Source: a virus
IMG/VR virus record: IMGVR_UViG_3300038566_000181
Coordinates: 1 to 38,003 of that record
Strand: one strand, 5' to 3'
Length of the DNA stretch: 38,003 nucleotides
Under the pieces are notes generated by a model. It was not told where the DNA came from. It worked only from the letters and a program-made list of their open reading frames with translations, and did not search any database. Shown here in pieces: positions 4,806 through 20,769 of the stretch. Within the stretch, counting starts at the first letter, position 1; the number at the start of each line of letters is the position of its first letter. Made by a program: the position numbers and the translations under genes.

Positions 4806-4841
4806 AAAAAAAAGCGCAAGCATCAATTAAGACACTTGCGC
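4806..4841 (-). terminator. Intrinsic terminator of the minus-strand operon
   Basis: On the minus strand the stem GCGCAAG / CTTGCGC (7 bp, perfect) is followed by eight T. The TAA of the small gene at 4827-4988 lies within the loop. On the plus strand there is no T run, so it mainly ends leftward transcription where the two operons converge. Confidence 0.85.
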
Positions 4842-4988
4842 TCTATTCTCCATTATCTCACTAATAGTAAGCTTACCTGCTTCAATCTCAGTAAACTCAC
4901 CATCCTCAAACCGCAATCCCATCTTTTCAATGTAGTACAAAAACTCATCGCCTGATAGGTTGTATTTCTTTTTTACTTTTAGATCCAT
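4827..4988 (-). CDS. Small unknown protein, 53 aa
   Basis: The ATG at 4988 follows GAGGT with 5-nt spacing. The peptide starts MDLKVKKKYNLSGDEFLYYI and ends ENRAQVS. It is helical, basic at the N-terminus and acidic after that. It is the last gene of the minus-strand transcription unit, placed between the 89-nt terminal element and the terminator. Its own promoter may lie in that element. Function unknown. Confidence 0.6.
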   Translation of the reverse strand: MDLKVKKKYNLSGDEFLYYIEKMGLRFEDGEFTEIEAGKLTISEIMENRAQVS

Positions 4989-5000
4989 TTTTACCTCATA

Positions 5001-5089
5001 TAAAAGTTATTGGAAACTAATTAAAATAACTATTGTAGGTTATAGCAACTCGAGTTTCCAATAACTGTAGCGCGAGTATATATGTTATG
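5001..5089 (-). repeat. 89-nt terminal element, copy 1 (end of cassette array 2)
   Basis: Matches 10680-10768 over 89 nt with 7 substitutions and no gap. Read on the minus strand it begins at the stop codon of the last cassette gene (CATAACATA), passes CTCGCG, then holds a perfect 14-bp inverted repeat AGTTATTGGAAACT / AGTTTCCAATAACT. Inside lies a smaller hairpin and a possible promoter (TTGGAA, 18 nt, TACAAT). Each copy closes one cassette array. The start after G^TT and the end of the inverted repeat are complementary, as at the ends of the gene cassettes, so it could be a cassette without a gene. Confidence 0.8.
5032..5061 (-). promoter_or_regulatory. Possible promoter within terminal element copy 1
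   Basis: Minus strand TTGGAA (5056-5061), an 18-nt spacer and TACAAT (5032-5037). All bases of both hexamers are unchanged in the second copy, while the spacer has one change. It would serve the 53-aa gene at 4827-4988. The -35 box is a weak match. Confidence 0.4.
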
Positions 5090-5366
5090 TTGCTCGGTTT
5101 TTAAGCAGTCTAACTCTATCTATACTGCAGTCGTTCAATATATATGATATTCTAGCCTCTGAAAAGTAAACAGGAACTGTCCATACGTTTTCAGGATTGT
5201 CAACAAAATGAACCTGATATTCCCATCCACCTTCTTCCCATAGCAAATGCAATAAATCTTCATTAACATCTGGTGCGTTTTTTATTATATCTATAATTCC
5301 ATTTTCGCAAAATTCCACAACCTTAGATGCGTTTTTCTCTAGTATTTCTATCACAGAAATTAACAT
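5085..5366 (-). CDS. Cassette gene: unknown acidic protein, 93 aa
   Basis: A GGAGAG ribosome site precedes the ATG. The protein starts MLISVIEILEKNASKVVEFC and contains a Trp/Glu-rich centre (LLWEEGGWEYQVHFVD). It is probably a small soluble protein. The TAA stop lies inside the conserved ACATAAC that begins the terminal element, a feature shared by several genes of the arrays. The bases after the upstream G^TT (TTATGTTGC) are complementary to the gene end GCAACATAA, marking the two ends of one cassette. Function unknown. Confidence 0.6.
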   Translation of the reverse strand: MLISVIEILEKNASKVVEFCENGIIDIIKNAPDVNEDLLHLLWEEGGWEYQVHFVDNPENVWTVPVYFSEARISYILNDCSIDRVRLLKNRAT

Positions 5367-5404
5367 AACTTACTCTCCTTCTAATTTGTATATGCAATGT
5401 CGCA

Positions 5405-5493
5405 ACATAACATAGCTATCCACGTTTCCTTTCCTTATCGCAAGCTACGCCTGACGCTAACGCGTCAATCGTGGCATAGCCTTCCCATTATGT
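5405..5493 (-). other. attC-like site, 89 nt, between the 154-aa and 93-aa cassette genes
   Basis: Minus strand: left box ACATAAT, six-base spacer, stem GCTAT-g-CCACG pairing with CGTGG-ATAGC (bulged G in the left arm), spacer TAT, right box GTTATGT. The apical part contains a perfect hairpin TGACGC-GTTA-GCGTCA. Predicted exchange point is G^TT, between 5411 and 5410. Confidence 0.75.
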
Positions 5494-5498
5494 ACACC

Positions 5499-5963
5499 TT
5501 AGTTTAGATACAAACTGCAATCTAGTTTCATTTCAATTTCAACTAAATCATTATAGCCTGGTATGAAATTAATATTTTGAACAGAAACAACCTCAACTCT
5601 ATCCTGAAGATTTTCTTTTGTCTCTTTCTTCATTCTTTTTTTTATTTCCAAAAGATTATTAGAACATTTCCTGTATTCATCATACAGCTCTTCTGTAATA
5701 AATCCTTTGATATTAACTCTAGGGTTCTTCGCCAATACTTCGCTATAACTTTTTTTGACTGTTATTTTTGATAATTCTTCTTCTTTTATTTCGATATTTT
5801 CAATTTTTTCAATTTTAAATAATTGGACATTAAAACCAGAATACTTTTTTACCATTATATTATTAAGTTCAACCCTATCACCGTCAAACTCAACAACAAA
5901 ATCAATCCCACCAGTCATATTTTGCTTTCTAGATAATTTCCCTACTATTACTCGATAAAACAT
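5499..5963 (-). CDS. Cassette gene: unknown protein, 154 aa
   Basis: Start 5963 is chosen because AGGAGG lies 6 nt upstream; a longer frame would read through the attC-like hairpin. The protein has an N-terminal beta-rich part (MFYRVIVGKLSRKQ), then a charged helical part with many Glu and Lys (about residues 60-120), and ends in another strand-rich segment. No family recognised. Its cassette begins TTATGTAAACC and ends GGTGTACATAA, complementary at 10 of 11 positions. Confidence 0.6.
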   Translation of the reverse strand: MFYRVIVGKLSRKQNMTGGIDFVVEFDGDRVELNNIMVKKYSGFNVQLFKIEKIENIEIKEEELSKITVKKSYSEVLAKNPRVNIKGFITEELYDEYRKCSNNLLEIKKRMKKETKENLQDRVEVVSVQNINFIPGYNDLVEIEMKLDCSLYLN

Positions 5964-5999
5964 AATTCCTCCTATTTGTTTACATTTTCCTGTCGGTTT

Positions 6000-6049
6000 A
6001 CATAACATAGCTGTCACGCCTACGGCTTTGCACAGCCTGCTCATTATAC
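6000..6049 (-). other. attC-like site, 50 nt (anchor of array 2)
   Basis: Minus strand: GTATAAT, GAGCAG, stem GCTGT-g-CA with TG-ACAGC, an inner GCC-GTA-GGC hairpin, TAT, GTTATGT. The stop codon of the 52-aa gene is inside the left box. Apart from the last bases it is almost the same as the site at 11880-11927. Upstream lies the coupled replication operon, so this is where the array joins the phage backbone. Confidence 0.75.
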
Positions 6050-6202
6050 ACCCAAAAACCCAGCAATCCCAACACACAACATACAATACTCATCAGCACC
6101 CATACCACGACCAAGCGTTGCTTTTGCAGACTCATAATCATGATAGCTACATGAATTTTTCTTATAGCCAAGTTCTATTAGTTTTTGTTCTAAATCTTTC
6201 AT
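6044..6202 (-). CDS. Small unknown protein, 52 aa
   Basis: ATG at 6202 follows GGAGGG with 4-nt spacing and overlaps the stop of the tiny gene upstream (ATGA). The peptide begins MKDLEQKLIELGYKKNSC and ends AGFLGV, with three Cys and a small hydrophobic C-terminus. Its TAA stop is part of the left box of the attC-like site. It is the last gene coupled to the primase-helicase operon. Function unknown. Confidence 0.6.
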   Translation of the reverse strand: MKDLEQKLIELGYKKNSCSYHDYESAKATLGRGMGADEYCMLCVGIAGFLGV

Positions 6203-6288
6203 TTATCCCTCCATTTTTTAGGCAACAATAAACTTATACCAAATACGAAATATAGCACACTCAACATTCTTACAGTTAAACTTTTCAT
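6199..6288 (-). CDS. Tiny membrane peptide, 29 aa
   Basis: The ATG overlaps the stop of the primase-helicase (TAATG), and its own stop overlaps the next ATG (ATGA). The ribosome site GAGGAG lies inside the helicase gene. The peptide is one hydrophobic helix with basic ends (MKSLTVRMLSVLYFVFGISL, then PKKWRDK). The continuous overlaps at both ends support translation despite the small size. Function unknown. Confidence 0.5.
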   Translation of the reverse strand: MKSLTVRMLSVLYFVFGISLLLPKKWRDK

Positions 6289-8030
6289 TAGAAATACTCC
6301 TCTATATTATTTATTTTGTCTCTTATATTTTCCCATCCAAGATCATTACGATTAAATAAGGTGTCTTCAGAAAATTTCTTATCTGCTTTATTAAAATATA
6401 GAGTCTGAACACCACCTGTCCTACCAGTCTCTCTCTCTTTTAACAGTTCTATTTGTCCATTACACCCGTCTCTTTCGATATCTAGCTTTGCAACACCTAT
6501 CATTACATCTACTAAATTTGGGATATTACTTGACCCAAGCACTCCATATTTTTTAGGTTTTAGTGTATCGCTATCACCTGTTGGGTTTTTCTGATGAGCA
6601 ACTATGTGTAATTTAACACCAAAAGACTTGGCAAATTCAGTACACTTTTTAATAAACCCTGTCTGAGTATCGTTTAAGCTGTTTTGATTATATTGTAGAA
6701 TGGTTGCCATGTTATCTATCACAAATGTTTTTACTCCATATCTAATAGACACATTCTTGAATATCGCAAAAAGGCTTTCATAATCTCCTGCAAAAGAGTC
6801 TTTAACAATATAAAATCTATCTGCAATCCAGTCATTTATTGCCATTACATTAAATTCATCAAGAAAATAATAGTTTTCGTCATATCTTTCACTATACCTT
6901 TCAATCAAATTAGTTATTCCAGAAGCCTGATAATATAGTGTTTTAAGTAGTTTTTTATTTGTTGACTCGCTTGAATATATACATATTGATTCGTTTTGAG
7001 CCAAAAATGTTGTAATCTCTTGTGACAATATTGTTGACTTACCGCAAGAGGTATATCCTGTCCACATTATTACATCTCCACCCCTATATCCACCCTCAGT
7101 GTTTCTATTAATATAATCAAATCCGCTTTCTATACTATCGAAAGAATCAGAATCATCAAATACATTAATTTCATCAGGAGTTATTATTTCAGCTATATCT
7201 TTAAATTTAGCGGTAGAAATCATTGCTTTAACTCCTTCTTCACCGCCATACTTCAAGCAGTCATTAGCGTCTTTGAACTTGTCAGAAAAAATATATTTAC
7301 ATTTATATTCACCTAGTCTGTGCATAATTTCATTTCTTGCTTTTATGCCAGCCTTATCTGAATCAGTCCAGATTATAATTTCTGAAAATTTCTGAACCCA
7401 ATCCCAACAATTAGTTAATGCAGTCATGTCACTAGCTCCGCTTGGTAAACTAACTGCATTTTTAAACCCAGCTTGCCATATAGATAAACAGTCTTCTTCA
7501 CCCTCTGTAATTATTAGAGATTCTCCCTTAACTTTATCCATCATGTAAAATACTGGTTTAGTGTTAGATTCACGCATTATTTTCTTATCTTTTATAGATC
7601 TAAATTTTCTAAAAGTAAGCTCGTTCTTATCGTCTTTATAGTTATAACTTATCCAACCATTTTTTGTCATTCCTATTTCAGCAAAATCTACAATTTTTTT
7701 CCCTATTCCCCTGTTAATAAAATATTTATAGATTAATTCTTTAGGTGATAATATTTCCTTAGTTGGTTTGGAATATTTCTTTGTAGATTGCTTTACCCTA
7801 TCACCACTAACATATACAGCGTTAAAGTCTTTAGCTAATTTCTGCAAGTTACCAGATACACCACAAGAATTAGCTCTAAAACACTTAAATAAACCAGTTT
7901 CCTGATTAATAGAAAAAGTATTTTGATCCCTGCTCTCACCACCATCACAATAAGGACAGTACTTAAATAGAATTTCCTTACCAGATATCCTATATTCCTT
8001 TCCTATCGCTCTTAATATGTTATCAATCAT
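6288..8030 (-). CDS. Primase-helicase, T7 gp4 / Twinkle type, 580 aa
   Basis: This is the replicative DNA helicase and, probably, primase. In order: a CHC2-like zinc ribbon (CPYC at 25-28, Cys50 and Cys56), a Toprim domain (LIITEGEEDC, later IIWTDSDKAG), and a RecA-type helicase core with Walker A GYTSCGKST and Walker B TFVIDNMAT, followed by a His-containing motif VAHQKNP. Start 8030 is preferred to 8039 because GGAGG is 9 nt before it, whereas the first ATG touches GGAGG. The start overlaps the stop of the upstream replication protein. All domain motifs look intact. Confidence 0.92.
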   Translation of the reverse strand: MIDNILRAIGKEYRISGKEILFKYCPYCDGGESRDQNTFSINQETGLFKCFRANSCGVSGNLQKLAKDFNAVYVSGDRVKQSTKKYSKPTKEILSPKELIYKYFINRGIGKKIVDFAEIGMTKNGWISYNYKDDKNELTFRKFRSIKDKKIMRESNTKPVFYMMDKVKGESLIITEGEEDCLSIWQAGFKNAVSLPSGASDMTALTNCWDWVQKFSEIIIWTDSDKAGIKARNEIMHRLGEYKCKYIFSDKFKDANDCLKYGGEEGVKAMISTAKFKDIAEIITPDEINVFDDSDSFDSIESGFDYINRNTEGGYRGGDVIMWTGYTSCGKSTILSQEITTFLAQNESICIYSSESTNKKLLKTLYYQASGITNLIERYSERYDENYYFLDEFNVMAINDWIADRFYIVKDSFAGDYESLFAIFKNVSIRYGVKTFVIDNMATILQYNQNSLNDTQTGFIKKCTEFAKSFGVKLHIVAHQKNPTGDSDTLKPKKYGVLGSSNIPNLVDVMIGVAKLDIERDGCNGQIELLKERETGRTGGVQTLYFNKADKKFSEDTLFNRNDLGWENIRDKINNIEEYF

Positions 8031-8953
8031 TTTAACCATCCTCCAGCTTTAAGAATTTCTACTTCAGAGATTAATTTACATTCTTGTTCTTTGCTAAAGT
8101 TCTTTGGTATATTCCCAAGAACATTATAAGCATGATGATATTGTTTTATTTCTATAGGTGCTGTACTTGGATCTTTAGTTTCTATAGGTCTGTCTTCATC
8201 ATATTTAACCCACTTACTCCCATCATCCTGATATTCTGAACAAATTAAATGGGTGGCATCTTTTACCTTCTGTCCAAAAAATTCTTTTATACCTCTTTTC
8301 CTAATAGCATATTGACCATTATTTTTAGTTTCTTCCACTAACAATGAGTGACGATCTATTAATATACACATCTCTTGATCAGATTCTATCTCTAATCTTT
8401 TCCTTGCTACATCAATAGCTTTTTTCATTTCATCAGTTAGTTTCTTATGATTAACAAGATTTTTTTTAGAAGTGTAGTTGTCGAATATTTTTTGGTAGGA
8501 AAATATATCTTCTATTTCTTCTTCTTCTTCTACTTCTTCTTTTATGGGGTTAATGTTGACATTAAACTCATTAATGTTAACTAGAACAAAGTTTTTGTTA
8601 ACTTTAATGCTTTTTTTTCTTTTAGCTGCTTCAAAATATCTTTTTTGTATTGCTTTTGAGGTTAATATTTTATATTTTTTATGAAGCTTTTTGCTAAAAA
8701 TATCTCTTTCTAGTGCAATGTTTACTATTTCTTCTATTAGTTTCAAGTCTATCATTATACGTCTCTTGATTAATAGAAATAAATCTTTACCATTTGTTAC
8801 ATAATACCCATTGTTTTGATAAGATAATTGCCAGATAGTTACTAAGACAGCCAAAGCATCACCGCCTTTTTCCGCTATAAGTAACTCTATTTTCTCGTCA
8901 AATTGAACATCCACAGGAAAATAGTCTATGCCTTGCTTTGTTGGTCTAGCCAT
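8027..8953 (-). CDS. Replication initiation / helicase-loading type protein with DUF4373 N-terminus, 308 aa
   Basis: The first 110 residues (ARPTKQGIDYFPVDVQFDEK, then GGDALAVLVTIWQLSYQNNGYY) match the DUF4373 (Lin1244/Lin1753-like) winged-helix domain found at the N-terminus of phage replication proteins. An acidic run of Glu follows at about 145-155. The C-terminal part is helical and may contact the helicase. Position directly before the primase-helicase, with overlapping stop and start, fits an origin-binding or helicase-loader role. The ribosome site is weak. Confidence 0.75.
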   Translation of the reverse strand: MARPTKQGIDYFPVDVQFDEKIELLIAEKGGDALAVLVTIWQLSYQNNGYYVTNGKDLFLLIKRRIMIDLKLIEEIVNIALERDIFSKKLHKKYKILTSKAIQKRYFEAAKRKKSIKVNKNFVLVNINEFNVNINPIKEEVEEEEEIEDIFSYQKIFDNYTSKKNLVNHKKLTDEMKKAIDVARKRLEIESDQEMCILIDRHSLLVEETKNNGQYAIRKRGIKEFFGQKVKDATHLICSEYQDDGSKWVKYDEDRPIETKDPSTAPIEIKQYHHAYNVLGNIPKNFSKEQECKLISEVEILKAGGWLK

Positions 8954-8959
8954 GATACC

Positions 8960-9550
8960 CTACTTTAAAACAGATGTTTCTGAGTCTTCTATAGCGTTCT
9001 TTATTTCAATAGTTAAATCGCAATCAGAAGGATTAAAATTAGTTATAATCCAATCAGCGTTTCCACTACATAAATCAAGAAAACACCCATCATTTGAGTC
9101 TACCTTAAATATACCATGATTTATATATTCGTCATCGTAAATTAAATGGTTTGAATATAGCCTAGCTTCTTCTGTGCCTATAAGGTAGCAAAATATTTCT
9201 GCTTCTTTATATCCAATATCTTCCAATATGGCATATATAGCTCTTCTATATCTAGTAAGCTGCTCATAATCAGATGTTTTGATTTCTCTGTTTTTTAACT
9301 CAAACAAGGTGATAGATAAATGTGTTGACATCTCTTCTTCACCGTCTTTAAAAAATGATTCTGGTTGTATCAATATAACGTCAGCTATCCCATATCCGTT
9401 AAGGTTTTGCTGTCTCAATATTACTGAATTTTTATCAAGAAATATTTCTTGGTGATATTCTGGGTCTTCGTTTGTTTTTTCTATTTCTTTATTTAGAAAA
9501 TCGACAAAAACAGCTTCCATTTGTTCTTCTGATGCGAATGGCATATTCAT
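8960..9550 (-). CDS. PD-(D/E)XK nuclease-like protein, 196 aa
   Basis: The core of the restriction-endonuclease-like fold is visible: YGIADVI with Asp57, then TLFELKN with Glu84 and Lys86, followed by a helix with YEQLTRYRRA. This spacing matches D...ExK of PD-(D/E)XK nucleases. A role in processing DNA ends during replication or recombination is likely because it lies in the replication operon. The exact subfamily was not recognised. The start follows the stop of the 58-aa gene by one base. Confidence 0.6.
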   Translation of the reverse strand: MNMPFASEEQMEAVFVDFLNKEIEKTNEDPEYHQEIFLDKNSVILRQQNLNGYGIADVILIQPESFFKDGEEEMSTHLSITLFELKNREIKTSDYEQLTRYRRAIYAILEDIGYKEAEIFCYLIGTEEARLYSNHLIYDDEYINHGIFKVDSNDGCFLDLCSGNADWIITNFNPSDCDLTIEIKNAIEDSETSVLK

Positions 9551-9551
9551 T

Positions 9552-9728
9552 TTACTTCTCCTTAGTTAAATATTTTTCAATAGCTTCTTTTGTATAGTCT
9601 TGTAAATTAGAAAATCCGTTTACCTGTGATGATATTGTTGGGTAGTTTCTTTCTGGTAAGTAATTTTGGACGAACCATTTTAGCGTTTTGTTTTCAACTC
9701 TTAATTTTGTCTTAAAATTTTCAATCAT
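9552..9728 (-). CDS. Small unknown protein, 58 aa
   Basis: ATG at 9728 follows AAGGAG. The peptide starts MIENFKTKLRVENKTLKWFV and ends YLTKEK. It is basic and helical. It is the first gene after a strong promoter (9758-9786) and is followed almost without gap by the nuclease gene. Function unknown. Confidence 0.65.
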   Translation of the reverse strand: MIENFKTKLRVENKTLKWFVQNYLPERNYPTISSQVNGFSNLQDYTKEAIEKYLTKEK

Positions 9729-9757
9729 CTTATTTCTCCTTAATATTTAATGATGTA

Positions 9758-9786
9758 AATATAATTATAATAATTATTATCGTCAA
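9758..9786 (-). promoter_or_regulatory. Sigma70-type promoter for the replication genes
   Basis: Minus strand: TTGACG (9781-9786), a 17-nt spacer and TATATT (9758-9763). The start would be near 9750, about 20 nt upstream of the ATG at 9728. It lies just after a terminator, so it begins a new transcription unit for 9728 leftward to the primase-helicase. Confidence 0.7.
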
Positions 9787-9787
9787 G

Positions 9788-9816
9788 CAATAAATAAAGC
9801 GACCCTTTCGAGCCGC
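9788..9816 (-). terminator. Intrinsic terminator after the 124-aa gene
   Basis: Minus strand stem GCGGCTC / GGGTCGC with a GAAA tetraloop (7 bp, two G-T pairs) followed by TTTATTTATT. It ends the upstream transcription unit (SSB and the 124-aa gene). The T tract is interrupted, so termination may be partial. Confidence 0.6.
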
Positions 9817-9823
9817 CTTAACA

Positions 9824-10198
9824 CTATCTTAAATCCACAAACTTAGCGTTGCTGTAATTATCAAGATCGTAAAAGTCTTGGGTGAAATCTAATAATTTAG
9901 CTTCACAGGTGACTAGTTTCATCGGATATTTCTCTGCAAATGTAGTTTGTAATCCAGTTGCTTGCATCCCATCACATTTGATAGGCTTGTCTAGCTTCGC
10001 AATTTCCTGTCCATTTTTTTTAATAATAAACTGGAAAAAGCTGTAATTTAGTATTGGTTTATCTTCTTCTATCATTGTTCCGATTGGCACTGATAAAACA
10101 AGCATTCTAGCCTGGTAGAAATGAATAAAACCATCACGCTCAACGTATTTGTCGGCTTTGACTTCTGCTGTGAAATTTCTTCCTTTTAGCTTATACAT
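9824..10198 (-). CDS. Unknown protein encoded next to SSB, 124 aa
   Basis: Start 10198 is chosen because AAGGAG lies 7 nt upstream; a longer frame lacks a ribosome site. The protein starts MYKLKGRNFTAEVKADKYVE and is beta-rich, with an HFYQARMLVLSVP segment and an acidic C-terminus (DFYDLDNYSNAKFVDLR). It lies downstream of SSB in the same direction, so a role in DNA replication or recombination is possible. No family recognised. Confidence 0.55.
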   Translation of the reverse strand: MYKLKGRNFTAEVKADKYVERDGFIHFYQARMLVLSVPIGTMIEEDKPILNYSFFQFIIKKNGQEIAKLDKPIKCDGMQATGLQTTFAEKYPMKLVTCEAKLLDFTQDFYDLDNYSNAKFVDLR

Positions 10199-10249
10199 AA
10201 TAACTCCTTTATGATTTGTTTTTGTCTGGGTCAAATCTTATAATGACCC

Positions 10250-10657
10250 TTAATTAAAAGGTACATCATCATCTGTAACTTGTTGACTTTTCACGCTAAC
10301 ACTATTTCCACCAGACTTTTCTAAAAAGCTGATCTTACGTGATATAATCTCGATAACACTACGATTATTATTATCTTTGTCTGTCCATGAGTTCATTTTT
10401 AAATATCCCTCAACTAATACTGGACTACCTTTTTGAAGCTCTTCGGCACATTTTTCGGCTGTTTTATCCCAAGCTGTTACATTGATAAAGCTTGTGTCGT
10501 TGACCCATTCACCGTTTTTCTGGTAGCTATTATCAAAAGCTATTGAAATCTTTGTGACTGCTATGCCTCCGCTCGTGTATCTCAGTTCTGCGTCTCGTGT
10601 TAACCTCCCAGTTAAAGTTACTGAGTTTACTTTTGGAAATCTTAATTCTCCTGCCAT
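10250..10657 (-). CDS. ssb: Single-stranded DNA-binding protein, 135 aa
   Basis: The OB-fold signature is clear: VNSVTLTGRLTRDAELRYTS at the N-terminus, then WVNDTSFINVTAWDKTAE and GSPVLVEGYLKMNSWTDKD. The short acidic tail ends DDDVPFN, the C-terminal tip through which SSB contacts partner proteins. The protein coats single strands during replication and recombination. It follows the terminal element copy 2, whose putative promoter would serve it, and has a GGAG ribosome site. Confidence 0.93.
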   Translation of the reverse strand: MAGELRFPKVNSVTLTGRLTRDAELRYTSGGIAVTKISIAFDNSYQKNGEWVNDTSFINVTAWDKTAEKCAEELQKGSPVLVEGYLKMNSWTDKDNNNRSVIEIISRKISFLEKSGGNSVSVKSQQVTDDDVPFN

Positions 10658-10679
10658 GATTTTCTCCTTTTGTTTTATT

Positions 10680-10768
10680 TAAAAGTTATTGGAAACTAAA
10701 CAAAATAACTATTGTAGGTTATAGCAACTTGAGTTTCCAATAACTGCGTCGCGAGTATCTATGTTATG
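10680..10768 (-). repeat. 89-nt terminal element, copy 2 (end of cassette array 1)
   Basis: The counterpart of 5001-5089 (82 of 89 positions equal). Minus strand: begins in the stop codon of the last cassette gene (GCATAAC), then CTCGCG, then the 14-bp perfect inverted repeat with an inner ATAAC/GTTAT hairpin. Sequence outside the 89 nt differs completely between the copies: SSB follows here, the 53-aa gene there. It marks the border between cassettes and backbone. Confidence 0.8.
10711..10740 (-). promoter_or_regulatory. Possible promoter within terminal element copy 2, upstream of SSB
   Basis: Minus strand TTGGAA (10735-10740), an 18-nt spacer and TACAAT (10711-10716). Both hexamers are identical in the other copy. 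Start of transcription would be near 10704, giving a leader of about 45 nt before the SSB start. Confidence 0.45.
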
Positions 10769-11093
10769 CAAACTTCAATTTCCTTTTTAACGGTATGTAG
10801 ATATAAGTTGCATTTGTAGGTCTATCGTGATATTTGACATAAGATTCTCCGTTTATCTCCCAGCCTTGATCTAAGTAAACTTTAAGATTTTCATTTATAT
10901 GATTTTCGTGAGAAGTAAATATTACATATTCGAATTTAAGTTTACTCTTACTTATATCTTTAAGCGTAAAAATTAAATAATAAGCCATAGTAGCACCCAA
11001 AAATATTTCTCCAGCATTTCCCGTTATTGCTAAATATGAGAATAAAAATATTGCAACCATACTAGCTATTGCTCTAATTAAAAATCTTTTCAT
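10764..11093 (-). CDS. Cassette gene: small membrane protein, 109 aa
   Basis: Two membrane segments at about residues 7-24 and 28-45 (IRAIASMVAIFLFSYLAITG; EIFLGATMAYYLIFTL) precede a soluble C-terminal part with FEYVIFTSHENHINENLKVY and LDQGWEINGESYVKY. The C-terminal pattern, a short domain with a conserved GWE, resembles small DUF4177-like domains, a weak resemblance only. It shares a cassette with the 76-aa gene upstream (11 nt gap). Its stop lies in GCATAAC at the start of the terminal element. Confidence 0.55.
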   Translation of the reverse strand: MKRFLIRAIASMVAIFLFSYLAITGNAGEIFLGATMAYYLIFTLKDISKSKLKFEYVIFTSHENHINENLKVYLDQGWEINGESYVKYHDRPTNATYIYIPLKRKLKFA

Positions 11094-11104
11094 CTTAAAC
11101 TCCT

Positions 11105-11335
11105 TTAATTTCTACCGGAAATAATATTTCCTGATTTAGTTATCTTTACATAAAACTCAATCTCTCCACTGTTGCCTTTAAAATGATAGTGATTAAATGG
11201 ATATATTAAACCACTATATTCATTAATAAATTCATTTGCAGAGTCTAAAGCCATTTTTCTTTCGACTCCATTTCTACAATTTTTTATAGTTATAATTGGT
11301 GATGGTTTCATTTCATATTTTGTAAAAGCTGACAT
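11105..11335 (-). CDS. Cassette gene: unknown protein, 76 aa
   Basis: A strong AGGAGG lies 6 nt before ATG 11335. The protein begins MSAFTKYEMKPSPIITIKNC and ends KSGNIISGRN. It is probably soluble. It is the first of two genes in the cassette that begins TTATGCAAA at the site 11371-11419. Function unknown. Confidence 0.55.
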   Translation of the reverse strand: MSAFTKYEMKPSPIITIKNCRNGVERKMALDSANEFINEYSGLIYPFNHYHFKGNSGEIEFYVKITKSGNIISGRN

Positions 11336-11370
11336 ATAGCCTCCTATTGCTATTTAATTAATCAAAATTT

Positions 11371-11419
11371 GCATAACAAACGTGTCAGTGCTCTGCACCG
11401 CACACGTCAAACATTATAT
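11371..11419 (-). other. attC-like site, 49 nt
   Basis: Minus strand: ATATAAT, GTTTG, stem ACGTGT-g-CgGTGC with GCACtG-ACACGT around an AGA loop, TT, GTTATGC. Bulged G in the left arm plus one mismatch. The stop of the 145-aa gene is in the left box. The left box does not pair fully with the right box (ATATAA versus TTATGC), as expected if they came from different cassettes. Confidence 0.78.
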
Positions 11420-11851
11420 TTTTACTATAGCCCTTATTTCTATTTCATATGTGATTGTCTCTCTAAACTTTGTAAATATCTCCAGCTTTAAAGAACTTAT
11501 CCTGTTATCCAATTTCAACGGATTATCTTGTTGAAACATAACTGAATGTATTTTGCCTTTAATTTTTGATATTTCAGATTCTATGACAATATCTTTGCCA
11601 ACACTTAATGCGTTAAATTCTGGCTCATTTACGCGTAGAGTTGTTCCATCGAACTTCCCCAGCATATTATTCTCAATATAAAAATTAACTCCTTTTACTT
11701 CTTTTTCTGGTAGTTTAATATTTAAATTAATAAAGTCAATAAACATTTGAGCTTCTTCTCTATAATTCCCAATAACCAAACCATCAAATCCATTCCCTTT
11801 TATCTGTGGGTGAGCTTCTCTCATATAGTGTTTAACTATAAACGTTTCCAT
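11414..11851 (-). CDS. Cassette gene: unknown protein, 145 aa
   Basis: Start follows AGGAGG. The protein starts METFIVKHYMREAHPQIKGN, has a middle with alternating strands (VNFYIENNMLGKFDGTTLRV) and a C-terminal half of regular beta pattern ending EIEIRAIVKI. Soluble by eye; no family recognised. Its cassette begins TTATATTTTT, complementary to its own end AAAAATATAA over ten bases. The stop codon is part of the attC-like site. Confidence 0.58.
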   Translation of the reverse strand: METFIVKHYMREAHPQIKGNGFDGLVIGNYREEAQMFIDFINLNIKLPEKEVKGVNFYIENNMLGKFDGTTLRVNEPEFNALSVGKDIVIESEISKIKGKIHSVMFQQDNPLKLDNRISSLKLEIFTKFRETITYEIEIRAIVKI

Positions 11852-11879
11852 CTTTATTCCTCCTAATTAATTAAAAAAA

Positions 11880-11927
11880 ATATAACATAGCTGTCACGCT
11901 ACGCTTTGCACAGCCTGCTCATTATAC
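11880..11927 (-). other. attC-like site, 48 nt, after the methyltransferase gene
   Basis: Minus strand: GTATAAT, GAGCAG, stem GCTGT-g-CA with TG-ACAGC, inner GC-GTA-GC, TAT, GTTATAT. Nearly the same as the anchor site of array 2 (6000-6049), from which it differs by two missing inner bases and the right-box ending. The methyltransferase stop lies in the left box. Confidence 0.78.
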
Positions 11928-12851
11928 GCTATTAATTCTTTCCTTCGCTATTTTGAAATATTTCTCATCTAATTCAATTCCTATGAAATTTCTGTTGGTG
12001 TTCTTGCAAGCAACGCCAGTGCTTCCGCTTCCCATAGTCAAATCAACTATTAAATCATTCTCATTACTAAAAGTTTTTATCAAATCTTCCAACAATAATA
12101 CAGGTTTTTGCGTGGGGTGGTAGCCGTTGTAATCCTTTTTGTATTTGAGTATGTTGCTTTTGTACTTGTTTCCTTCCCACAGGTTAAAAGTGCTTTTAGT
12201 TTTTTCTTTAAATTCATTTTCCTGTTCCTTTAAAACAGAATATTCAGTAAAGCCTTTCATTTTATCAATTCCGTACATTTCAATCATTTGTAGGTATGTT
12301 TTTTCTGTACATAAATGAACTTGGAAACTGTTTTTACCTAATAAAAAATGAAAGGCTCCTTGATGTCCCATTTCTTTAAATATCTGTCTTTTGGGCTTGT
12401 TTATGTATTCAATAACCAAATCAGCATAGCCATAAACAGGGTGCTTTAAACAAGTATCATAAACCTTGCTAAAAACCAAAATATCCTCAACATAACTTAC
12501 AGGTGCTTTATTTGCCACTAAGCAATTAGCGAAGTGCATTTTATCCCAATACATACAATAAGAGAAAGGTACGTTTGGTATTTGGTTTTTTATTAACTCA
12601 GTAGTAAAAGGTTGATTAGCAGATAATACCATTTTGCCGTTCTTGCGAAGTATTCTATTCGCAATTTGCATTATCTTTTCAGTTGGTATAATATTATCCC
12701 ATTCACTACCCGAAAGCCTTTTATATTTTTCAATATCTCCACCAAGTCCTTTTATTGTTCCATAGGGTAGATCAGTAAGTATTAAATCAACACTACCGCT
12801 TTCTATTTTATCGCTTTCAACTAAGCAATCGCCTTTATATAGTTTTATCAT
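11922..12851 (-). CDS. Cassette gene: DNA methyltransferase, beta class, 309 aa
   Basis: The enzyme transfers a methyl group from S-adenosylmethionine to adenine N6 or cytosine N4. Catalytic motif IV is DLPY (residues 27-30), near the N-terminus. The SAM-binding motif I lies at the C-terminus (VDLTMGSGSTGVA, about 269-281) followed by FIGIELDEKYF. The order IV before I with a target-recognition region between defines the beta class. No restriction partner is adjacent, so it is an orphan modification enzyme that may protect phage DNA. Its cassette starts TTATACGC and ends GCGTATAA. Confidence 0.92.
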   Translation of the reverse strand: MIKLYKGDCLVESDKIESGSVDLILTDLPYGTIKGLGGDIEKYKRLSGSEWDNIIPTEKIMQIANRILRKNGKMVLSANQPFTTELIKNQIPNVPFSYCMYWDKMHFANCLVANKAPVSYVEDILVFSKVYDTCLKHPVYGYADLVIEYINKPKRQIFKEMGHQGAFHFLLGKNSFQVHLCTEKTYLQMIEMYGIDKMKGFTEYSVLKEQENEFKEKTKSTFNLWEGNKYKSNILKYKKDYNGYHPTQKPVLLLEDLIKTFSNENDLIVDLTMGSGSTGVACKNTNRNFIGIELDEKYFKIAKERINSV

Positions 12852-12885
12852 CCTTCACCTCCTATTTTAAACTTTAATAAATTGC

Positions 12886-12934
12886 GTATAACAAAGCTAT
12901 CAGTGCTTTGCACCGCATAGCCGACCCATTAGCG
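12886..12934 (-). other. attC-like site, 49 nt, before the methyltransferase gene
   Basis: Minus strand: CGCTAAT, GGGTCG, stem GCTAT-g-CgGTGC with GCACtG-ATAGC and an AAA loop, TTT, GTTATAC. The left box CGCTAAT differs from the usual NCATAAT, and the matching TTAGCG is found at the start of the same upstream cassette (site 13434-13486), not in this site. Confidence 0.8.
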
Positions 12935-13153
12935 CAACTTCTCTAGCTTTTTACTATCACTAGCAAGTTTCAAGTGATACCCTGACGAAAATTTACTAAA
13001 CTGATCAACAATATCTGGATTAACTCTAAAAAAGTCTATAACACTGAATAGGTCTTTTTTATCAACAATAGAATGCTTATCATCTAAATTCAATTTTTGT
13101 TCTGTTCTTGTATGTGGTTCAAGAAATCTTATTCCAAAATCTTCTGTTTTCAT
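12929..13153 (-). CDS. Cassette gene: unknown protein, 74 aa
   Basis: Begins MKTEDFGIRFLEPHTRTEQK and is basic and helical towards the end (SKKLEKLR). It follows the 76-aa gene with only one base between, so the two form one cassette. Its TAA stop is within the CGCTAAT box of the attC-like site. No family recognised. Confidence 0.55.
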   Translation of the reverse strand: MKTEDFGIRFLEPHTRTEQKLNLDDKHSIVDKKDLFSVIDFFRVNPDIVDQFSKFSSGYHLKLASDSKKLEKLR

Positions 13154-13423: not shown

Positions 13424-13433
13424 AATACAGTTT

Positions 13434-13486
13434 CGCTAACAACTGTGTCCTCACCGTACGGCAAGGCACACAGCGAGACATTATGA
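13434..13486 (-). other. attC-like site, 53 nt
   Basis: Minus strand: TCATAAT, GTCTCG, stem CTGTGT-g-CCT with AGG-ACACAG, inner CC-GTAC-GG, TT, GTTAGCG. Bulged G in the left arm as in the others. Right box GTTAGCG is unlike the common GTTATGC and matches the end of its own downstream cassette. Confidence 0.8.
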
Positions 13487-13508
13487 GAACTTTTTGCTAT
13501 AGTGGAGC
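13481..13508 (+). repeat. 28-bp inverted repeat, left copy, flanking the DUF7446-like gene
   Basis: Matches the reverse complement of 13918-13945 at 27 of 28 positions. It starts with TTATGAGAAC at the attC-like boundary and reads on through GCTATAGTGGAGC. This is the longest cassette-end match in the window and makes the cassette look like an element with terminal inverted repeats. Confidence 0.88.
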
Positions 13509-13515
13509 TAAGTTC

Positions 13516-13890: not shown

Positions 13891-13917
13891 GTTTTCTCCT
13901 TAATTTGTTTTGTTTTC

Positions 13918-13945
13918 GCTCCACTATAGCAAAAGGTTCTCATAA
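13918..13945 (-). repeat. 28-bp inverted repeat, right copy
   Basis: Read on the minus strand it begins TTATGAGAACC directly after the G of the attC-like site 13940-14059. It agrees with 13481-13508 read on the plus strand at all but one base. It forms the start of the 124-aa gene cassette. Confidence 0.88.
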
Positions 13946-14059
13946 CATAGCTATCCACAGCTACATCACTTGTTTTCCTAGTTCGATTCGTACCGAATCA
14001 AACAGATTGTTTGTCTTTGCTAAATACCACGTTGTCGTGGCATAGCCTTCTCATTATGC
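13940..14059 (-). other. attC-like site, 120 nt (longest)
   Basis: Minus strand: GCATAAT, GAGAAG, stem GCTAT-g-CCAC with GTGG-ATAGC, TAT, GTTATGA. The long apical part contains the perfect hairpin GATTCG-GTA-CGAATC and a second CCACG/CGTGG option. Length is like large VCR-type attC sites. No ORF of size lies in it. Confidence 0.75.
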
Positions 14060-14064
14060 AAACT

Positions 14065-14542: not shown

Positions 14543-14579
14543 TCTATCCTCCTATTGTTATTTTGATTAATTAAGATTT

Positions 14580-14648
14580 GCATAACATCGCAATCCCCGC
14601 ACCAAGTCCACAGATGGTGAACTGCGGGGCATTGCAGACCCATTATGT
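14580..14648 (-). other. attC-like site, 69 nt, with long perfect stem
   Basis: Minus strand: ACATAAT, GGGTCT, stem GCAAT-g-CCCCGCA with TGCGGGG-ATTGC (12 bp, only the bulged G unpaired), inner GTTCAC-CATCT-GTGGAC, GAT, GTTATGC. This is the clearest example of the fold. Confidence 0.82.
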
Positions 14649-14650
14649 AC

Positions 14651-15610
14651 TTATTCACTCTCTAAATATCCTTTACCTTCGCAATGTGGACAAGGCACAA
14701 ATGGTTTGTTTATTTTATAAATCAAATCTTCTAAAAATAGATCTATTTTCTTCTTTAATTCATCTTGAGTTTCAGCTGTTATCCCATCTAGTACAGGATA
14801 TCTATCATAATTACTCTTTTCTGAAGTCATTTCCCAAACTATATATTCATTATATTCTTTGACTCCGTGATGTATTTTTTGTCTTTTTTTCTTAGTTGAT
14901 TCAAATGGATTAGTGTAAGTGAACTTCTTTATTTCATACAAAGGGATTATTTTTTTTACAGTAAAGCAGAAATCATAATCAGAAGTTATCCTTGCTTGAT
15001 CTTTGTCTATGTTTTCCTTAATGTAGTTACGAACAATACAATATAAATCCTCACTACTTATCTTGCTTGGCTTTAAGGATAGTAGTATATCAGGAAATGC
15101 AATCTTATCTAATAGTTGATGTTCTATGTTTGCTGAAGTTATTGTGTATTTTTCATCAGAATAATTCCACTTACGCAATCCTTCATATTCAAAAGCATTA
15201 GGTATTTGAAAGTCTTTTACTTCGGCTATAATATTTATTTCAGGATTTATCTCAAAATATTCGCCTTTCTCTATATCATATTTATACTCATAAAATGGGT
15301 ATTTTTCATCTTCATAGTCAAGTTCCAATATGGTTAGCGGGAAGTGGTCTGACTCCATAGATATATCTTTAAGCTCATATCTTATATTTATTCTTTTATC
15401 ACTACGTTTAGACATAATTACTTTTGGCATCTTTTCTATAAATAACCAATTTTTAGAAAATGTTGCTTGTGGTTTTTTCCCATCAAACAACAGATTGTCT
15501 ATTTTTGATGTATGATAATTATAATAATAACCATCAGATACATTACAATCTGAAATAAAACAACCTTTATCAGTTTTTATTACGTGTATCTCTATTTTAT
15601 TTTTTCCCAT
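14651..15610 (-). CDS. Cassette gene: unknown protein with C-terminal CxxC, 319 aa
   Basis: The longest cassette gene. Mostly beta-rich and acidic (LTILELDYEDEKYPFYEYKY), then a charged central segment with KKKRQKIHHGVKEYN. It ends in FVPCPHCEGKGYLESE, half of a DnaJ-type CxxCxGxG zinc motif; a second CxxC is not seen, so the metal site would need a partner or a dimer. Its cassette is the exception to the end rule: start TTATGCGAAG and end-complement TTATGTACTT agree for only five bases. Function unknown. Confidence 0.6.
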   Translation of the reverse strand: MGKNKIEIHVIKTDKGCFISDCNVSDGYYYNYHTSKIDNLLFDGKKPQATFSKNWLFIEKMPKVIMSKRSDKRINIRYELKDISMESDHFPLTILELDYEDEKYPFYEYKYDIEKGEYFEINPEINIIAEVKDFQIPNAFEYEGLRKWNYSDEKYTITSANIEHQLLDKIAFPDILLSLKPSKISSEDLYCIVRNYIKENIDKDQARITSDYDFCFTVKKIIPLYEIKKFTYTNPFESTKKKRQKIHHGVKEYNEYIVWEMTSEKSNYDRYPVLDGITAETQDELKKKIDLFLEDLIYKINKPFVPCPHCEGKGYLESE

Positions 15611-15653
15611 TTTTTTCTCCTTTTTTATTCTTATTTTTGACTAATACAACTTC

Positions 15654-15703
15654 GCATAACAAGCAGCTTCACGCCGAAGCGTGACAGCAGCCACCCATTA
15701 CGT
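15654..15703 (-). other. attC-like site, 50 nt (anchor of array 1)
   Basis: Minus strand: ACGTAAT, GGGTG, stem with GCT-g-TCACGC pairing GCGTGA-AGC and a TTCG tetraloop, right box GTTATGC. The stop of the MazG-like gene is in the left box. No matching TTACGT start exists upstream, where genes overlap continuously, so this is the border of array 1 with the backbone. Confidence 0.75.
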
Positions 15704-16237
15704 GTTATAATACCCAGATTTAATCCTTTCCCCAGTTCTTTTCATTTTCTTGTTAAACATATCGAGGAAAATGTTTATTCCTACATGTAGCACTATTTGC
15801 AATCCAACAATAACCACATCAACAAATTCTTCTAGCATTCTATATGGATCGCCTTCTTCTATTGCTTCTAAAAATTCTAAAGTTTCTTCTTTGATTTTGT
15901 TTTTAGATTGGTAGTCGTAGGTGAAATATTCCTTAAACCAATTAAGCTTAATAATGTAAGGTCTTGCGAATTTCAATGCTGATGCGTATTTATTACCTGG
16001 GACAGAAGCTATGATATTATCTACAGAATATCCTCTATCTGTGTCTATACGTCTAAGCTTGTAACCTTCTGGAACCTCACCAACAAATGCGTTGTAAACT
16101 GTTATTTGACGACTTTTAACCGAATATTTATAATAAAGGTCTTTGTTTTTATCCTCTAACTCTTTCCCATCAGGGCTAAAAACTATCCCATTTCTAAAAA
16201 GTCTAAATCCTCTTTTGGTTGTTATTGCGTTTTTCAT
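15698..16237 (-). CDS. HNH-like / MazG-like two-part protein, 179 aa
   Basis: N-terminal half: NGIVFSPDGKELEDKN, VEV-type strand, then EGYKLRRIDTDRGYSVDNII, which copies the layout of phage HNH homing-type proteins but lacks the His pair, so it is probably inactive or only DNA-binding. C-terminal half: KEETLEFLEAIEEGDPYRML, EEFVDVVI, then NKKMKRTGERIKSGYY, matching MazG-like nucleoside triphosphate pyrophosphohydrolases (ExxE, then ExxD metal ligands). The start overlaps the previous stop (ATGA). The combination is uncommon. Domain calls are by pattern. Confidence 0.6.
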   Translation of the reverse strand: MKNAITTKRGFRLFRNGIVFSPDGKELEDKNKDLYYKYSVKSRQITVYNAFVGEVPEGYKLRRIDTDRGYSVDNIIASVPGNKYASALKFARPYIIKLNWFKEYFTYDYQSKNKIKEETLEFLEAIEEGDPYRMLEEFVDVVIVGLQIVLHVGINIFLDMFNKKMKRTGERIKSGYYNT

Positions 16238-18208: not shown

Positions 18209-18683
18209 TTTCATCCTCCCTTTCTTTCCTAGCTTGGTTACAATAAAAATCTCTTCTACTCTCTTTTGGTAAGTTTTCCTCTTCCCAAGTATCTTGACAC
18301 ATATCATCACAAAAGTAATCGTCTGCTTGCTCGTGCTTAAAGTGTCGGTTGCCTTCTTCGTCAACATCATCATCATCAAGCAGGATAGGTGCGCCACATT
18401 CTTTACAATATACCTCACGATATTCGATAGCAAGGTCAACCTTTCTAGCCATCTCACCTGCAACAACGATAGTAACATTAAAATACCCAATCTTCACAAC
18501 AGCTTTAGCCACGTTCTCAGCGTCAATAAAATGAAACTGTACTTTTCTATTCTCATAGTTTAAAAACTTCTGAGAACAGCTTTTTAACATTATATTGTCG
18601 CCGTCATGCTCTCTAAAATAAAAATCTTTCAGCTCTAAGCCTAAATCATTCAAGCCTTGCTCTAAAATTCTCAATTCTTTCAT
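18192..18683 (-). CDS. Protein with zinc-ribbon-like Cys cluster, 163 aa
   Basis: Second ATG of an ATGATG is used because it stands 5 nt after AGGAGG plus AT. The N-terminal 85 residues form a small alpha/beta part. Cysteines follow as CKECGAP, then FCDDMCQD, giving a CxxC...CxxxC cluster of treble-clef or zinc-ribbon type at about residues 94-130, with a very acidic link (LLDDDDVDEEGNRHF). The C-terminus is charged. Early gene next to ERF; function unknown, perhaps DNA or protein binding. Confidence 0.6.
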   Translation of the reverse strand: MKELRILEQGLNDLGLELKDFYFREHDGDNIMLKSCSQKFLNYENRKVQFHFIDAENVAKAVVKIGYFNVTIVVAGEMARKVDLAIEYREVYCKECGAPILLDDDDVDEEGNRHFKHEQADDYFCDDMCQDTWEEENLPKESRRDFYCNQARKEREDENERIQ

Positions 18684-20614: not shown

Positions 20615-20690
20615 GCTGAAGTAGCTCAGTTGGTAGAGCAACTGATTTGTAACTAGTAGGCCGCAGGTTCGATTCCTGCCTTCAGCACCA
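20615..20690 (+). tRNA. tRNA-Thr (UGU)
   Basis: Cloverleaf: acceptor GCTGAAG / CTTCAGC (7 bp perfect), D arm GCTC/GAGC, anticodon loop TTTGTAA with anticodon TGT at 20648-20650, T arm GCAGG-TTCGATT-CCTGC, and encoded CCA. One imperfect pair lies at the bottom of the anticodon stem. It reads ACA, a frequent codon in this AT-rich genome. Confidence 0.93.
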
Positions 20691-20693
20691 TTT

Positions 20694-20769
20694 AGGGAAT
20701 TAGTATAATTGGTAGTACACGTGATTTTGGTTCATGCGGCAGCGGGTTCGAATCCCCTATTCCCTGCCA
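20694..20769 (+). tRNA. tRNA-Gln (UUG)
   Basis: Acceptor AGGGAAT / ATTCCCT, anticodon stem CGTGA / TCATG with loop TTTTGGT giving anticodon TTG, T arm with GGTTCGAATCC, and CCA encoded at the 3' end. It starts four bases after the tRNA-Thr end. It reads CAA, the main Gln codon here. The D stem is weak. Confidence 0.9.

Follow-up and report, generated by a model that had tools for sequence, protein, structure and literature searches.

A duplicated promoter-like element at the ends of two integron-style cassette arrays in a tailed-phage genome

The window analysed here covers an entire virus record (38,003 bases). A near-identical repeat of 110 nt is located at the two ends of the record, which suggests that the genome is nearly complete. 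Tailed-phage genes are encoded (terminase, portal, major head, tape measure, primase/helicase, ssb and Erf), and two tRNA genes, Thr(TGT) and Gln(TTG), are located at 20615–20769, ahead of the late genes. The early genes occupy the minus strand between about 19.2 kb and 4.8 kb, and both cassette arrays are located within that block. Array 1 extends from 15.7 to 10.7 kb and is flanked by a MazG-like gene and ssb. Array 2 extends from 6.05 to 5.07 kb and is located 3' of the primase gene. No integron integrase was recognised among the window proteins scanned, which cover a part of the ORFs. With eight attC sites found by a model and no integrase among the scanned proteins, the arrays are classed as CALINs (at least two attC sites, no integrase). 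Cassette arrays without integrase are already known from phages (PMC9892861). As for the host, the capsid profile and the attC model gave weak or no matches on samples of two phyla, and the empty attC answers had no positive control.

Array 1 carries a Gad1 anti-Gabija gene (14651–15610, Pfam E = 4.9e-62) and a DNA methylase gene (11922–12851, E = 8.9e-34). These are counter-defence genes in the form of integron-style cassettes in a phage, and the control of array growth therefore bears on phage counter-defence.

All attC sites are located on the minus strand. The first attC of array 1 (15652–15705) directly follows the MazG-like gene, and further sites of this array are found at 14578–14650, 13432–13488, 12884–12936, 11878–11929 and 11369–11421. 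Array 2 has its first attC at 5998–6051 and another at 5403–5495. The six short sites show a common two-helix structure in which 90.6% of the cells pair. The covariation score of their alignment is higher than those of all 500 shuffles, counts that are not probabilities for related sequences, and slid versions score far lower; the structure was drawn from one of the six sites, and both controls agree. A covariance model was built on the six short sites, and the two other sites were held out. Both were recovered, 14578–14650 at 43.1 bits and 5403–5495 at 38.0 bits. These results indicate that the cassette attCs of the window are genuine. A ninth, long site (13946–14060, 106-nt interior) is assigned from its boxes and the start/end rule described below only, as the model does not span it. 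One cassette has a start and an end (13481–13511 and 13915–13945) that are complementary over 31 nt at 94%, far past the usual boxes. The attCs 5998–6051 and 11878–11929, one from each array, are 96% identical over 48 nt, and their cassettes are different. Apart from this pair and the element described next, there was no support for array 2 as a copy of array 1.

The same 89-nt element closes both arrays on the minus strand, as the sequence-only reading had proposed. Copy 1 (5001–5089) is located at the end of array 2, and copy 2 (10680–10768) at the end of array 1. The two copies are identical at 82 of 89 positions without gaps (E = 2.5e-33 between copies). The flanks are unrelated: in 15-nt bins, the identity rises from 7/15 to 15/15 at the left edge and falls from 13/15 to 3/15 at the right edge, against a background of 4.2/15. 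One small correction concerns the left side, where the identity continues 5 nt (TAAAA) beyond the G^TT core. A 14-bp perfect inverted repeat is present in both copies. The window has two such repeats, and Markov-shuffled genomes gave one in 40 trials. In copy 1 the arm AGTTATTGGAAACT is located at 5005–5018 and its partner AGTTTCCAATAACT at 5053–5066, with the minus-strand core G^TTATTGG at 5065. In copy 2 the arms are located at 10684–10697 and 10732–10745, with the same core at 10744. The hairpin folds better than shuffles in both copies (z about −3). On the minus strand the order is the stop codon/R'' box of the last cassette, 18 nt, the core G^TTATTGGAAACT with a promoter-like pair, AGTTTCCAATAAC, TTTTA, a ribosome site and the next gene. 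The element does start in the stop codon of the last cassette gene, but this is ordinary in these arrays, because several cassette genes take their TAA stop from the R'' box (xxTAAY).

The cassette ends were compared using the bases after the G^TT of each cassette and the reverse complement of its own R'' end, over 12 positions. Own pairs agree at 10.2/12 on average and mismatched pairs at 6.5/12, and the element reaches 12/12 in both copies, so the claimed rule of complementary starts and ends holds. The last cassette of array 2 (5065–5410, minus strand; gene 5085–5366) matches its own start at 9/12 with a run of 9, and that of array 1 (10744–11376, minus strand; genes 11105–11335 and 10764–11093) at 11/12. 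The last cassettes obey the rule, and they are therefore complete up to R''. From R'' to the core only an 18-nt stub follows, at 5066–5083 in copy 1 and, largely alike, at 10745–10762 in copy 2 (both minus strand). The interior of the last-cassette attC is thus 18 nt in both arrays, compared with 34–106 nt in the other attCs of the window. Run over both strands up to E = 10 without filters, the attC model matched neither the stubs nor the element; it is not exhaustive, as it also misses the long site 13946–14060. Both arrays end in a truncated attC against the same module, which has a cassette-like outline and no recognisable attC. Two unrelated last cassettes meet the module at the same place, at R'', which points to site-specific joining and not to random breakage. 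The plus-strand junction reads CTATG^TTATG in copy 2 and ATATG^TTATG in copy 1, and it resembles, in reverse, the 3' ends AGCTATG^TTA of four array attCs.

The complementary start and end, the lack of a gene within the element and the presence of two copies beside different neighbours fit a gene-less promoter cassette that is mobile and is read on the plus strand (TTATTGGAAACT ... AGTTTCCAATAAC, 18 nt, G), with one insertion at each array end, reversed with respect to the other cassettes. Gene-less cassettes with promoters, antisense ones included, are known (PMC11014356). This part of the sequence-only reading is retained for the ends and the missing gene, but the attC that a cassette should carry was not found, while held-out attCs score 38–43 bits in the same model, and the 18-nt interior is too short by the standard of the other sites. 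The orientation opposite to all other cassettes, the identity extending past the left core and the failure to find more copies in the searched collections of phages, plasmids and viral sequences also argue against a mobile cassette, and we regard it as unlikely.

In integrons, the original recipient site contributes its right flank as the sequence that follows the last core of an array. Both arrays share this sequence (82/89), as would be seen if the element were an attI-like site of the phage itself at which arrays enter, present in two copies. However, the element is located at the distal end of both arrays with respect to the cassette coding strand, and at both array starts the left flank is a full attC preceded by phage genes. 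The R'' boxes of the first attCs agree with the element core at 5/12 and 4/12, below the background of 6.5/12, and the core was dropped as a candidate for the displaced partner of the first attC. The scanned proteins include no integrase, and the relative described below has a lone attC in place of the element. An attI-like attachment point, which had been suggested from the sequence, is thus highly improbable.

The promoter-like pair TTGGAA-18-TACAAT is located on the minus strand at 10711–10740 in copy 2, and copy 1 has the same hexamers and spacing at 5032–5061. The pair is present and conserved as had been noted, but its 9/12 match is weak and not significant alone, since 14% of random same-strand 89-nt windows reach it. 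The copies are equally oriented upstream of the next gene, with 43 and 53 nt between the end of the −10 box and the ATG. The first gene after copy 2 is ssb (10250–10657, minus strand, PHROG 44), which is followed by a 136-aa ORF, and this unit is closed by a predicted terminator (9795–9820, minus strand). Copy 1 precedes an ORF of 53 aa without a known family (4827–4988, minus strand), also closed by a predicted terminator (4811–4844, minus strand). The simplest role of the element would be that its putative promoter restarts transcription behind the array, into the next genes of the phage.

One arm of the inverted repeat overlaps the −35 box, and the other is located just past the expected transcript start. 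This arrangement would also suit a duplicated, regulated phage promoter, in which the 14-bp arms (AGTT-N6-AACT) are repressor operators and the likeness to a cassette core arose by chance. Similar arrangements of ATTGGAAACT ... AGTTTCCAAT, 52–54 nt apart, are found in Bacteroidaceae and spirochaete genomes, where the arms lie within longer palindromes; these genome matches, however, were selected by the search pattern itself. The arms in those genomes look like operators around a promoter. In the window no other arm site was found with up to 2 mismatches, and no repressor was recognised among the proteins scanned. Operators also leave unexplained why two different cassettes stop exactly at R'' against nearly the same 18 nt. 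According to these results, we consider this rival reading improbable; the arms as such may also serve as operators.

Further copies of the element, the search for which had been proposed as a check, were found neither in phages, plasmids and viral contigs (two patterns) nor in the only relative, and none was seen in the examined sequence parts of three CALIN-carrying phages. One viral-contig match to a pattern was unrelated by eye. Pattern matches in bacterial genomes were rejected as copies, being chance or operator-like. Relatives were sought by scans with the primase, terminase, capsid and head proteins, and one relative over the whole length was found. Its genome is 36,149 bp, and the identity is 69% for the head protein and mostly 45–62% elsewhere. 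In the relative, ssb is located inside an operon, one attC is present, and the element is wholly absent. The lone attC (18226–18297) folds far better than shuffles (z −6.65) with a long outer stem, and it is matched by the covariance model at a marginal E of 0.25. With its long matching outer arms, the site appears unrecombined; no further attC is present, and it is possibly an empty docking site. The sequence-only reading asked if cassettes in related phages always stand next to the element; the relative, with its lone attC and no element, neither confirms nor refutes this, and it is too distant to be decisive.

We presume that the element forms a fixed, duplicated border to both arrays, and that its promoter serves ssb with one further ORF in one case and the 53-aa ORF in the other. 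The probability of this reading is put at roughly 0.5. What is directly observed is that the element is duplicated with sharp edges and cassette-style ends, that the last attC of each array is truncated, and that the copies stand before two short transcription units. In the proposed mechanism, an integron integrase supplied by the host would have joined the element to each array at the plus-strand G^TT, giving a tail-to-tail junction. The 18-nt remnant would then link the upstream edge of the element to the last cassette at its R'' box. A border without a working attC should allow no further excision. Downstream of an array rich in attC hairpins, the minus-strand promoter, set between the two 14-bp inverted arms, would probably restart the transcription of ssb with its neighbouring ORF, and of the 53-aa ORF. 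Recombination at inverted GTT secondary sites by integron integrases has been reported (PMC10127599, PMC4792948), which offers a possible route for the joining of element and array. Inverted GTTRRRY motifs at the borders of phage arrays were noted earlier (PMC9892861). Against a clean integrase cut stands the left-side identity of 5 nt beyond the G^TT core. The promoter match, which is weak alone, the failure to recognise an integrase in the scanned proteins and the only relative found, which is without the element, also count against this reading.

In an extended form of the fixed border, phages would carry a dedicated array-border module. Such a module would dock cassette arrays by means of an unusual short site (R'', 18 nt, core) on the opposite strand, and its promoter would protect the expression of essential genes behind the array. 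We think this extension distinctly doubtful. The repeated border, joined to two different cassettes at one place, provides a concrete and testable junction that bears on how arrays enter phages without an integrase, where arrays stop and how the replication genes behind an array stay expressed.

With its cassette-like ends, promoter-like core and lack of an attC, the element represents a variant kind of array border. The stub resembles attC sites in its R''-like box, the core G^TT and the start/end match, whereas its interior is half or less the length of the others and the attC model fails to recognise it. Gene-less (ORF-less) promoter cassettes of integrons are described from Vibrionaceae (PMC11014356) and from an oral metagenome (PMC6557892). 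The element is like them in being short and gene-less, with a promoter-like sequence and complementary start and end, and in its position beside a gene that it could drive. It differs in that no attC is recognisable, that it is oriented opposite to the array, and that it is located at the distal end of both arrays with the promoter pointing outwards into phage genes. A similar setting is the CALIN of the Tetrasphaera phage TJE1 (Qi et al., 2023, PMC9892861), an integrase-less array with a DNA methylase near ssb and an inverted GTTRRRY hairpin at the border. In TJE1 the cassette array with the methylase is also located shortly upstream of ssb (positions 1–1850 of the sequence examined), and a GTT...AAC hairpin borders the array. 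The TJE1 hairpin, which is unrelated in sequence, borders the array proximally and is predicted to be a terminator, whereas the element of the window is promoter-like, repeated and located at the distal ends of two arrays.
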